Assembly: GCF_001548055.1 (NCBI RefSeq)
Contig: NZ_AP014724.1
Span: 1,178,001-1,242,000, forward strand
Length of the DNA stretch: 64,000 bases
Direction: 5' to 3'
DNA from: Sulfurospirillum cavolei
GTDB taxonomy: Bacteria > Campylobacterota > Campylobacteria > Campylobacterales > Sulfurospirillaceae
A model generated the notes under the pieces. It saw only the letters and a list, made by a program, of their open reading frames with translations, ran no database searches and was not told the DNA's origin. Positions 52,229 to 59,295 of the stretch are shown piece by piece; within the stretch, counting starts at the first letter, position 1, and every line of letters starts with the position of its first letter. A program made the position numbers and the translations under genes.

Positions 52229-52244
52229 TGTACATATTTGTACA
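52229..52244 (+). promoter_or_regulatory. Probable enhancer site for the AnfA/NifA-type activator
   Basis: TGTACATATTTGTACA fits both GTAC-N6-GTAC (reported for VnfA/AnfA-type activators) and TGT-N10-ACA (the NifA upstream activator site). It lies 133 bases before the anfD ATG and about 100 bases before the predicted transcription start, in the usual enhancer range. Its binding protein is probably the activator encoded at 56.4 kb. Confidence 0.7.
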
Positions 52245-52319
52245 CAGATGCTTTTCTCCACTCCTCTTTTATTTTTTCAAATAGCCTAAAATAGGCACTT
52301 TTAAGCTCTTTAACCTTCG

Positions 52320-52334
52320 GGAATACTCTATGCA
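52320..52334 (+). promoter_or_regulatory. Candidate sigma-54 promoter of anfDGK
   Basis: GGAATACTCTATGCA has the invariant GG and GC separated by exactly ten bases. It resembles the GGAA-N8-TGC form known from Campylobacter RpoN promoters. The predicted start is about 32 bases before the anfD ATG. A second candidate at 52294-52306 (GGCAC...GC) has a nine-base spacing and is less likely. Confidence 0.55.
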
Positions 52335-52340
52335 GTTTAG

Positions 52341-53945
<1,605 letters not shown>

Positions 53946-53956
53946 AGGAGGCAAAG

Positions 53957-54310
53957 ATGAACGAAGAGACGATTCGTGCCCGTATCGCACCCTTGGAAGA
54001 TTACATTATGAAGCACTGCCTTTGGCAATTCCATTCCCGCGAATGGGATCGCGTTAGGCAAAACGAAGGTATTTTAAGCAAAGCAAAGCAACTGTTATGC
54101 GAAGAGCCGGTGGCAAAAGATACACCGGAAGATCGTTGTTATTGGGTCGATGCCCTTGCTTTGACGGAAGCCTTTCAAAAGCGGTTTGCGTGGCTTAAAG
54201 AGATGGATAAAGAGAGCATAGAGGTTCTGATGCACGCGCTTAAAGAACGCATCGATTTTGTTACGATTACGGGGTCGCTCAATAAAGAGTTGACCTCTCC
54301 ACGTTATTAA
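53957..54310 (+). CDS. anfG: Iron-only nitrogenase, delta subunit AnfG
   Basis: This 117-residue protein is slightly shorter than Azotobacter AnfG (~132). It is diagnostic of alternative nitrogenases: IMKHCLWQFHSREWDRVRQN, EDRCYWVDALALTEAF and the C-terminal ITGSLNKELTSPRY. A strong AAAGGAGG overlaps the anfD stop. It binds the alpha subunit and is required for activity of alternative nitrogenases. Confidence 0.95.
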   Translation: MNEETIRARIAPLEDYIMKHCLWQFHSREWDRVRQNEGILSKAKQLLCEEPVAKDTPEDRCYWVDALALTEAFQKRFAWLKEMDKESIEVLMHALKERIDFVTITGSLNKELTSPRY

Positions 54311-55708
<1,398 letters not shown>

Positions 55709-55771: not shown

Positions 55772-56299
55772 ATGCAAAAAATTCGTTATACGCAACGTAT
55801 CTGTCAGGACCAAGAGGCCATCGAATCTTTTTTACAAACAACGCGCGTAGGCATTGTTGCGATGATCGATCACGAGAGCCTTCCTTATGCAACGCCCGTT
55901 AATTTTGTTTGGCATAAAGGAGCTCTTTATTTTCACGGAATGGGTTCGGGGAAGAAAGAGTCGATCTTGTCCCAAAATCCCTCCATTTGTTTTACCCTCT
56001 TCCATGAATTCGGTACGACGGTCGATCCGATGCCCTGCCATGCCGATACCTCTTATCGAAGTGCGATGATCTTCGGGAAAGTCTTTAAGGTCGATCATAG
56101 CGAAGAAGCGGCGGAGGTATTGCAATGTATCCTTGATAAATATACTCCCGATTATTATAAAACGACGATTACGAGCACTTTAGTCGAAAAATATCGCTCG
56201 TCGCACGACGGTAAAGCGGTATCCGTTTTCAAAGTGCTTCCTTATGAAATAACGGTCAAAGAAAACTGTGTACCCGAAGATCAATTGTTTAATAAATAA
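55772..56299 (+). CDS. Pyridoxamine-5'-phosphate-oxidase-fold protein in the anf cluster
   Basis: This 175-residue split-barrel protein is related to the PNPOx/NimA (Pyridox_ox_2) group. Its landmarks are VGIVAMIDHESLPYATPVNF, GALYFHGMGSGKKES, ICFTLFHEF and YRSAMIFGKVFKVD. Members bind FMN, F420 or heme. AAGGAG precedes the ATG. It lies inside the anf cluster between anfK and the activator, where anfO and anfR occur in well-studied operons, but it does not resemble AnfO as I know it. The function is unknown; protection or redox support of the nitrogenase is a guess. Confidence 0.8.
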   Translation: MQKIRYTQRICQDQEAIESFLQTTRVGIVAMIDHESLPYATPVNFVWHKGALYFHGMGSGKKESILSQNPSICFTLFHEFGTTVDPMPCHADTSYRSAMIFGKVFKVDHSEEAAEVLQCILDKYTPDYYKTTITSTLVEKYRSSHDGKAVSVFKVLPYEITVKENCVPEDQLFNK

Positions 56300-56341: not shown

Positions 56342-56399
56342 ATTCGTTATATAATTAAATATATAATGCTAAAGTTCGTTGATATTACTTGAGGAGACG

Positions 56400-57941
56400 A
56401 TGGTGGATACTACCTGTATTAGCCCGATAAAAGATTGCCCGCGTTATCAAGAGCTTAGAGTATTATACGATATTTCTTTGGCACTTCGCGAGAGTGCTTT
56501 AGGAATCGAAACGGCTTTTGAAAAAACGCTTCAATTGCTCAAAAAACATTTTTATATGGATAAAAGCATCTATTACGGTTTAAACGACGAACAAAACGAA
56601 CTGTACGTGTTTAGTTCGATCGGACTGAGTCGTCAACAAGAGCTCTTATGCACGTATAAAATCGGTGAAGGTGCAACGGGAATGGCGGCGGAATTTAAAG
56701 AGCCCGTCGTGATCGAGAACGTGCATCACAATACCCTTTTTCTCAATAAAAGCCGTAGTTTGAAGAAAAGCGAAATCTCTTATTTGGCGATTCCGGCGTT
56801 ATCGCACCATCAACTCTTAGGCGTGCTGGGCGTGAGCCTTACTCAACAGTCTTTAGATAATTTTGAAGAATTGATTACGATTTTGTCGATTACGGCATCG
56901 TGGTTAGCACAATCGAAGCAGATGCATCAAACCATTATCGATGAGAAAAAGCGGCTCAAAGAAGAAAAGCTTTATTACAAAGAAGAAATTTTAAGTCCTC
57001 ATGAAATTTTGGGGCACAGTGCATCGATTCAAACCGTTTTGGAGATGATTCACAAAGTCGCGCAAACCGATTCAACGATCTTTATCAGCGGAGAAACGGG
57101 AACGGGCAAAGAGTTGATCGCCAAAGCACTTCATAACTGTAGCCTTCGTAAAGAAAAACCTTATATCAAATTAAACTGTGCGGCAATTCCGGAAAATCTT
57201 TTGGAAAGCGAACTTTTCGGACATGAAAAAGGAGCGTTTACGGATGCAAAAGAGATGCGTAAAGGGCGTTTCGAATTGGCGGATGAAGGAACGCTGTTTC
57301 TCGATGAGGTCGGAGATTTGAGCCTCAATCTTCAAGCCAAGCTTTTGCGTGTTTTGCAAGAACAAGAGTTTGAACGTTTAGGCGGCGTTAAAACGATTAA
57401 AGTCAACGTACGCATCGTTGCGGCGACCAATCGTAATCTTAAAGAGATGGTTCGCGACGGCCGTTTTCGAGAAGACCTTTTTTACCGCTTGAACGTGATT
57501 CCTATCTTCTCCCCTCCTCTTCGCGACCGCGGCGATGACATCATTGTGTTGGCGCGTCACTTTTTGGAGCACTTTTGCAGGCGGCACGGCAAAGAGCGTC
57601 TTTTAACATCCGATGCCGAAGCTATGCTCAAAGCTTACGCATGGCCGGGCAATATTCGCGAACTTGAAAACAGTATGGAACGCATCGTGTTGCTGGCTCC
57701 TTCTTTACATGTCGATTCGCACGTGATCCTTTCGGTATTGCCGGCAAAAAACGAAGTGACGAACAAAGAGGTCGAAACCAAAGCCGATTTGGAAGATTTG
57801 GAACGCCAAACAATCATTAAAGTTTTACGGGAGTGCGGCGGCGTCAAACTCAAAGCGGCAAAAAAACTGGGAATGAGTAACCGTCAAATCGGTTATAAAA
57901 TTCAAAAATTTGACATCGGTATCGGTGATTACCTTGAGTAG
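56400..57941 (+). CDS. anfA: Sigma-54-dependent activator, AnfA/VnfA/NifA type
   Basis: The protein is 513 residues (MVDTTC...), with GAGGAG just upstream. The N-terminal GAF domain (~20-180) is preceded by C6 and C13, reminiscent of the Cys motif of VnfA/AnfA. The AAA+ domain has Walker A GETGTGKE (231-238), sigma-54 loop GAFTDA (278-283; GAFTGA is usual), and Walker [12 protein letters not shown] Fis-type helix-turn-helix ends it ([20 protein letters not shown]). The oxygen-sensing Cys linker of some NifA proteins is absent. It probably activates anfD through the site at 52229-52244. Confidence 0.88.
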
Positions 57942-57957
57942 CGTCACTCAAAATTCT

Positions 57958-59295
57958 ATGCAATCGCCGCCTCGTTTTTTATTTCAAGACCTTTTTGACG
58001 ATACGGCGTGTTCACATATCGGGAGTAAAGATAAAAAAACGACATGTGAACGTTTACAACCCGGCTCATGCGTTAGCGGATGCGCTTTGGAAGGTGCATT
58101 CAATTTTTTGAGTCCTATTCAAGGATGCGCGCATTTGATTCATTCGTCTCCGACATGTTATAACGCTTCGCGTATTCAAAAGAAAGACGGCACGGAGCAT
58201 TTTTGCACGACTTTGGCACTCAACGATCTGATATTCGGTGCGGAAGAAAAACTGAAAATGCAGATTAGCCATATCGCTAAGACCTATCGTCCTCGCGTGA
58301 TTTTTATTTACATGACGTGTGTTAGCTCGTTGATAGGCGAAGACATCGAGCGGATTGCCAAAAGCATGCAACAAGAGCTTGGTATTTGGATCGTTCCGGT
58401 AATGTCCGCAGGCTTTTTAGGGGTTGCAAATTTCGGTGTACGTATTGCGGGTATGGCGCTTTTAAAGACGTTAATCGGGCTGAAAGAGCCTTTAATCGAT
58501 ACCGCGTATGCAATCAACCTTTGGGGCTACGGACTGAGTGAAACCCAACGGATGAGTTATCGCATTCTTTTTGAACGCGTCGGAATGCGCATTTTGGCAT
58601 TTTTCGGCGGTGATGAAGCGGTTGAAGCGATTATGGGTGCACACAAAGCAAAACTCAACGTTTTAATCAATGCCAAGTCGTTAACGCCCGTCGCGCGAAA
58701 ATTTGAAGAACGATACGGCGTTGCGTACGTGGAAACTTCGTTTTTCGGTGCTCGCGCGACGTGTGATGCATTGCGCGTGATTGCGGAGCAGTTTAATGAC
58801 GGAGCGGTGTGTCGTAAAATTGAAAATATGATTCACGAAAAAACCAAAGCCCTACAAGAAACATGTAAAGCGTTTCATACGCTTTTTTCCGGAAAAAAGG
58901 TCGCGATTTTATTGAACGGACTCTTTTCGTGGGCCTATATCCCGCTTTTGGAAGATTTCGGGATGCATGTCGTTGCGATATCGATTGAAAATTTGAATGA
59001 AGACGATAAAGAAAAAGCGGTGGATTTGCTCTTAGGCAAAGGACGTTTTATGTACGATCCAAACGTGGAGTTTGAAGAAATTGTGAACGAAGAGCCTATC
59101 GATATCGTGATTACCGATACGGATCATTGCGCTATCGCTTCGCGAGCACATATCCCTTTTTTCAATATCGATCGTTGTTCAAATCCGTTTTTTATTGGAT
59201 TTGAAGGGGAAGCGGCGTTCGCGACGGAACTTTCATTGACACTTCAAAACCCCGTATTTAATATCGTCTACCAAAACCCGCCGTGGCAAGAATAA
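57958..59295 (+). CDS. NifE-like nitrogenase-family protein with an altered cofactor site
   Basis: The protein is 445 residues from the ATG at 57958. A TTG at 57934 that overlaps the activator stop is an alternative with better coupling. It resembles NifE: QPGSCVSGCALEGAF, LALNDLIFGAEEKL, YMTCVSSLIGEDIERIAK and VETSFFGARATCDAL. The three Cys matching the permanent Fe-S cluster site are present (C42, C67, C121). The Cys matching NifE C250, the proposed ligand of the cofactor precursor, is Asn here (N238, in KLNVLINAKS). No NifN partner lies nearby. It may assist FeFe-cofactor assembly or have a new role. Confidence 0.82.
   Translation: MQSPPRFLFQDLFDDTACSHIGSKDKKTTCERLQPGSCVSGCALEGAFNFLSPIQGCAHLIHSSPTCYNASRIQKKDGTEHFCTTLALNDLIFGAEEKLKMQISHIAKTYRPRVIFIYMTCVSSLIGEDIERIAKSMQQELGIWIVPVMSAGFLGVANFGVRIAGMALLKTLIGLKEPLIDTAYAINLWGYGLSETQRMSYRILFERVGMRILAFFGGDEAVEAIMGAHKAKLNVLINAKSLTPVARKFEERYGVAYVETSFFGARATCDALRVIAEQFNDGAVCRKIENMIHEKTKALQETCKAFHTLFSGKKVAILLNGLFSWAYIPLLEDFGMHVVAISIENLNEDDKEKAVDLLLGKGRFMYDPNVEFEEIVNEEPIDIVITDTDHCAIASRAHIPFFNIDRCSNPFFIGFEGEAAFATELSLTLQNPVFNIVYQNPPWQE

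Follow-up and report, generated by a model that had tools for sequence, protein, structure and literature searches.

A NifE paralog tied to the Fe-only nitrogenase operon of Sulfurospirillum, with a possible role in receiving NifB-co

Behind the Fe-only nitrogenase (anf) genes of Sulfurospirillum cavolei lies a gene whose product, judged by phylogeny, is a duplicated campylobacterotal NifE and not an AnfD, and whose features suggest a helper reserved for the nitrogenase that works without molybdenum. We consider it quite possible, if short of likely, that this paralog is a NifE-derived receiver of NifB-co for the Fe-only enzyme, unable to make FeMo-cofactor and perhaps also doing the job of AnfO. 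It has not previously been reported in the open-licence papers searched, which held no description of the paralog, nor of an Fe-only nitrogenase or anfD in Sulfurospirillum. Work on Azotobacter vinelandii, whose only NifEN-like proteins are NifEN and VnfEN (PMC8406325), has led to the view that FeFe-cofactor assembly is scaffold-free; a NifE paralog that stays with the anf operon throughout a lineage without AnfO and AnfH suggests another route of NifB-co delivery and cofactor separation, and would, if the reading is true, be the first assembly-scaffold relative shown for the Fe-only enzyme. With its surface and O-cluster sites retained and its interior site gone, the protein amounts to a NifE dissected by nature; it could allow a test of whether surface or interior binding comes first in NifEN, a point in dispute (PMC13128457 versus PMC13031127), and it may aid the building of a minimal Fe-only nitrogenase in other hosts.

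The locus and its distribution

The features of the locus within the window (the whole 64,000-nucleotide stretch of the S. cavolei genome that was analyzed) are listed in Table 1. Orthologs of the paralog were found in eight genomes of the 44-genome family sample, all of them Sulfurospirillum: the gene is present in every anf-bearing genome (8/8), and the 36 genomes that have no intact anfD all lack it. The phylum sample (397 genomes) contained no second NifE of this type outside Sulfurospirillum, the plasmid search yielded nothing beyond NifE and further nitrogenase relatives (at most 36%), and a scan of genome contigs found a single Sulfurospirillum locus. All eight orthologs may stem from a single event, and with such a possible single origin of the locus these co-occurrence counts are not independent events.

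The shared gene order is hisS-speA-cysE-anfD-anfG-anfK-PNPOx-anfA-paralog-aspB-gltD, with one incomplete genome (G406) represented by a short contig that stops after the paralog. The flanks also occur in G109, where all that is left of the anf genes is a frameshifted stretch from the N-terminal part of anfD (L065:8229-8911) and the paralog is gone too; phosphonate-type genes lie between its cysE and aspB in place of the remaining anf operon. The PNPOx-family protein, which campylobacterotal anf clusters have in common, is weakly related to the O2-reducing Anf3 (6rk0, E 6e-7), is closer to other PNPOx proteins, and might be standing in for Anf3.

The predicted coupling to the activator gene holds in every genome checked, the paralog starting 16-25 nt behind anfA (16 nt in S. 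cavolei), so that co-production with AnfA when molybdenum is scarce is probable. Ahead of anfA lies a ModE-like box, CGTTATATA-N6-TATATAATG, one mismatch away from the E. coli ModE consensus, with a chance expectation of 0.02 per window; orthologous loci have a dyad of 9-6-9 layout at the same place, diverged in sequence and matching at 13-14 of 18 positions beyond the two closest genomes, and the S. cavolei genome encodes ModE-type regulators. The true start of anfD is probably the ATG at 52377 (MPYHEFEC), because position 52344 comes only shortly after the sigma-54-like element. The motif GTAC-N6-GTAC, suggested as the VnfA site of A. vinelandii, occurs once upstream of anfD (52230-52243) and is not conserved in the orthologs.

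Table 1. Features of the anf locus and of the paralog, in window coordinates
Feature	Position	Strand	Remarks
sigma-54-like element GGGAATACTCTATGCA	52319..52334	+	upstream of anfD; conserved in orthologous loci
anfD	52377..53945	+	family match
anfG	53957..54310	+	family match
anfK	54320..55708	+	family match
PNPOx-family flavoprotein gene	55772..56299	+	always anfK-PNPOx-anfA; anfK-PNPOx-anfO in G117
ModE-like box CGTTATATA-N6-TATATAACG	56345..56368	+	1 mismatch in 18; between PNPOx gene and anfA
anfA-type sigma-54 activator gene	56400..57941	+	stop 16 nt before paralog ATG
NifE-like paralog	57958..59295	+	445 aa, open ORF; TIGR01283 (nifE) 294 bits, cut-off 505
Cys18 = NifE C15, predicted NifB-co surface ligand	58009..58011	+	alignment, kept in 8/8; role from PMC13128457
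Cys30 = NifE C25, predicted NifB-co surface ligand	58045..58047	+	alignment, kept in 8/8; role from PMC13128457
Cys42 = NifE C37, O-cluster ligand	58081..58083	+	alignment, kept in 8/8; PMC13031127
Cys67 = NifE C62, O-cluster ligand	58156..58158	+	alignment, kept in 8/8; PMC13031127
Cys121 = NifE C124, O-cluster ligand	58318..58320	+	alignment, kept in 8/8; PMC13031127
Asn238 (codon AAT) = NifE C250 position	58669..58671	+	pairwise HMMER alignment to PDB NifE, and MAFFT
Arg406 at NifE Q419 position (weak interior ligand)	59173..59175	+	alignment; Arg/Lys/Pro in orthologs

The S. cavolei genome contains nifB, nifV, nifE, nifN and nifX. As predicted, no nifN-like gene adjoins the paralog, the nifE-nifN pair lying about 320 kb away, and no VnfN-type gene stands next to it. 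The expected association with anfDGK lacking anfO was likewise found: AnfO is absent from all eight anf-bearing Sulfurospirillum genomes. No AnfH was seen in these eight, and each, except the incomplete G406, has a single strong nifH match (G000:C1:1517819-1518670 in S. cavolei); NifH therefore presumably serves both nitrogenases. A genome from another family of the same order (G117) carries anf and AnfO, one ordinary NifE with the C250 cysteine, and no paralog; its anfO sits right behind the PNPOx gene, in the slot that anfA and the paralog occupy in Sulfurospirillum. The G117 stretch (L083:2626-10607) shows an unusual joint arrangement: anfDGK-PNPOx-anfO immediately precedes nifHDK, both running on the same strand, and neither anfA nor anfH occurs in it; this genome likewise has one nifH. 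AnfO of A. vinelandii bars FeMo- and FeV-cofactor from the Fe-only enzyme (PMC9310841, PMC11938142), and its replacement by the paralog fits these data, in which each arrangement is represented by a single lineage.

Descent from NifE and the fate of its cluster sites

In a profile search the best family matches of the paralog were NifE models, at 294 bits against the curated TIGR01283 cut-off of 505; the 502 bits of S. cavolei's own NifE likewise fall below it. The AnfO model (TIGR02940) was absent among the 16 families matched, the CfbD model matched far more weakly than NifE, and a domain search revealed no domain for DNA binding or signalling. NifE and the paralog are about 35% identical overall. 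The predicted derivation from NifE is borne out by a maximum-likelihood tree in which the paralogs form one clade (100/100; stem 0.95) within campylobacterotal NifE (100/100), and it is because of this nesting that we regard the paralog as a duplicated NifE and not an AnfD. The tree places the paralogs away from VnfE, a placement that is unsure as the single VnfE compared is a long branch; horizontal arrival with VnfE is thus not supported by the tree, subject to the same long-branch reference. That reference is a Nostoc sp. C057 protein (L082:11625-13151) annotated only as nitrogenase component 1, on a branch of 3.8, and being so extremely divergent it is a poor one.

Between close genomes, dN/dS is 0.11-0.17 for the paralog and 0.00-0.06 for anfD, anfG and anfK; the paralog is thus under purifying selection, though its evolution outpaces that of its enzyme several-fold. 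Between-clade identity is 42-51% for the paralog against 86-88% for AnfD/AnfK. An AlphaFold2 monomer model, from an input alignment with plasmid rows left out, has an intact fold (mean pLDDT 83); structural comparison ranks NifE chains first (Z 34-37), ahead of NifD (about 31-34) and AnfD (about 30). The N-terminal arm bearing C18 and C30 was modelled with low confidence (pLDDT about 40); in NifEN this arm is ordered with NifB-co bound and disordered otherwise (PMC13128457).

Three sites of NifE serve as landmarks: the surface pair C15/C25 binds NifB-co, and no FeMo-cofactor is formed once C250 is changed to Ala (PMC13128457); the interior site holds the cluster through C250, with Q419 as a weak further ligand and R70, K252 and K357 close by; and the O-cluster is ligated by C37, C62 and C124 (PMC13031127). 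We compared residues in a MAFFT alignment of the eight paralogs and 26 NifE, with NifD and AnfD (A. vinelandii NifE numbering). Coordinates, residues and numbering in the original prediction proved correct (ORF, HMMER, MAFFT), as did its assignment of C42, C67 and C121 to the permanent cluster. It had also placed an Asn at the C250 site, and here HMMER and MAFFT agree, with N238 opposite the VCSKAM cysteine of the A. vinelandii protein. The C250 column holds Asn, Ser or Gly in all eight paralogs and Cys in 26/26 NifE, as well as in S. cavolei's own NifD and AnfD; no other Cys of the paralog occupies this position, and no NifE in an ordinary setting carries Asn there. Misalignment with a Cys close by is ruled out by the HMMER alignment and by the lack of any other Cys within 30 residues of N238. 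The idea that the Asn itself is a specific ligand in place of Cys had to be given up because orthologs have Ser or Gly at this position. Nor is C250 the sole site for the precursor: the C15/C25 surface pair, which the original prediction had missed, also binds NifB-co (PMC13128457), and the paralog retains it as C18 and C30.

The loss extends well beyond one residue. Seven positions (C250, Q419, R70, K357, K160, N164, I44) are lost in 8/8 paralogs, as are the NifE motifs NVTGD, TGGNK and AGGRSL, while C15, C25, C37, C62, C124, R165 and K252 are kept in 8/8 and the C-terminal P.F..V...PW segment is retained. Each paralog has 9-13 cysteines, and the only five common to all eight are the equivalents of C15/C25 and C37/C62/C124. 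Among 186 near-invariant NifE columns (64 kept in all paralogs, 58 lost in all, 64 mixed), interior-site residues, taken as the eight named by two structural papers (PMC13128457, PMC13031127), are lost at 7/8, against 51/178 other columns (p = 0.001); surface and O-cluster residues are kept at 6/7, counting K22 (p = 0.007). K22, near the surface site, is Asp or Glu in the paralogs, and the C18-C30 loop is two residues longer than its NifE equivalent. The paralogs also lack the cofactor Cys ligand of a catalytic alpha subunit, the AnfD/NifD Cys275 column being Asn, Ser or Gly, and in the His442 region they have D/E/S and R/K/P where NifE has N418/Q419.

Possible roles of the paralog

The original prediction had offered three roles: a specialized FeFe-cofactor carrier, a homomeric scaffold and a regulator derived from NifE. 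Of these the carrier comes out strongest, since the residues that bind NifB-co at the surface have been retained and the interior site has not. In outline, a campylobacterotal NifE would have been duplicated and one copy taken over by the Fe-only nitrogenase; this copy would keep the NifE fold, the cysteines of the permanent [4Fe-4S] O-cluster and the N-terminal Cys pair for NifB-co at the surface, and would have lost the interior site where NifEN holds the cluster via C250 and converts it to FeMo-cofactor. Produced with AnfA, probably once molybdenum runs out, it would capture NifB-co, keep it off the molybdenum path and deliver it to apo-AnfDK for completion into FeFe-cofactor; in doing so it may also cover for the absent AnfO. 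FeFe-cofactor consists of NifB-co and homocitrate, and its completion takes place in apo-AnfDK without NifEN (PMC8406325, PMC11938142). Cluster binding, the partner (NifN, AnfK or the paralog itself), the direction of transfer and molybdenum control are the parts that we infer. The full chain, in which a paralog dedicated to the Fe-only nitrogenase receives NifB-co at its surface, makes no FeMo-cofactor, passes the cluster to AnfDGK and replaces AnfO, is put forward somewhat more tentatively. Against a receiver stand the low-confidence C18/C30 arm, the longer loop and the K22 replacement. In A. vinelandii, moreover, FeFe-cofactor can do without both NifEN and VnfEN (PMC8406325), so that in principle no scaffold is called for; and one study has the cluster entering NifEN from the other side, via the interior and then to the surface site (PMC13031127). 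Should interior entry come first, a paralog without the interior site might never load, and the receiver model would be in difficulty.

The same pattern of kept O-cluster cysteines and P.F..V...PW segment with a lost catalytic interior could describe a dominant-negative NifE, which would replace NifE beside NifN at low molybdenum, the dead NifEN freeing NifB-co for the Fe-only enzyme and stopping FeMo-cofactor synthesis and misinsertion. The free-standing NifN in the S. cavolei genome, the Mo-box-preceded transcription unit and the absence of AnfO agree with this; a mere decoy, however, needs no surface cysteines for NifB-co, yet both are invariant, and at about 35% identity to NifE its binding to NifN is uncertain, so that we consider this unlikely. 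Slightly less likely again is an analogue of AnfO, a guard on apo-AnfDK or on free FeMo-cofactor against misinsertion of FeMo-cofactor into the Fe-only enzyme, as AnfO does in A. vinelandii (PMC11938142): AnfO is missing in 8/8 genomes and in G117 stands behind the PNPOx gene, but the families are unrelated, the comparison has one lineage per side, and the interior, where FeMo-cofactor might have been held, no longer has its site.

The constant position behind anfA in one Mo-box-preceded unit would also suit a regulator that senses NifB-co, Fe-S or redox state via its kept clusters and modulates the activator encoded upstream. This seems improbable, as the protein has no DNA-binding or signalling domain, the link is gene adjacency alone, and AnfA elsewhere (in R. 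capsulatus and A. vinelandii) to our knowledge functions without such a partner. A role for the O-cluster only, with a homodimer or AnfK heterodimer acting in P-cluster assembly or electron relay without NifB-co, is a little more improbable still: the three O-cluster cysteines, the lack of an adjoining gene for a dedicated beta-type partner and known homodimeric relatives such as CfbD speak for it, but it leaves the invariant C18 and C30 unexplained, and the protein fits the CfbD model much less well than the NifE models. Fast divergence (42-51% between clades, against 86-88% for AnfD/AnfK) might indicate a decaying duplicate without function; with the gene intact in eight genomes, its low dN/dS, five invariant cysteines and its loss together with anf in G109, this is very improbable, and a pseudogene is disfavoured by the dN/dS values and the eight intact copies.

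The NifB-co receiver that we prefer can be set beside several known systems. With NifE of NifEN, in whose campylobacterotal branch it nests, the paralog shares the fold, the O-cluster cysteines, C15/C25, R165 and K252; unlike NifE, it lacks seven interior residues, three motifs and an adjoining nifN, and is tied to anf and not to nif. VnfE is likewise a NifE paralog for an alternative nitrogenase, but is paired with VnfN, whereas the Sulfurospirillum protein comes from campylobacterotal NifE. AnfO (TIGR02940) is also encoded by an accessory gene of anf clusters, yet belongs to an unrelated sequence family and is absent wherever the paralog is present. CfbD, a homodimeric nitrogenase relative, and other nitrogenase-like oxidoreductases belong to the same superfamily, some being homodimers with one Fe-S cluster, but their similarity to the paralog is much lower than that of NifE. 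NifX/NafY and relatives (PF02579) have a small unrelated fold and are not of the same family; some members without ligand may be antagonists (PMC13128457), and as carriers of NifB-co or FeMo-cofactor these proteins offer a possible functional parallel.
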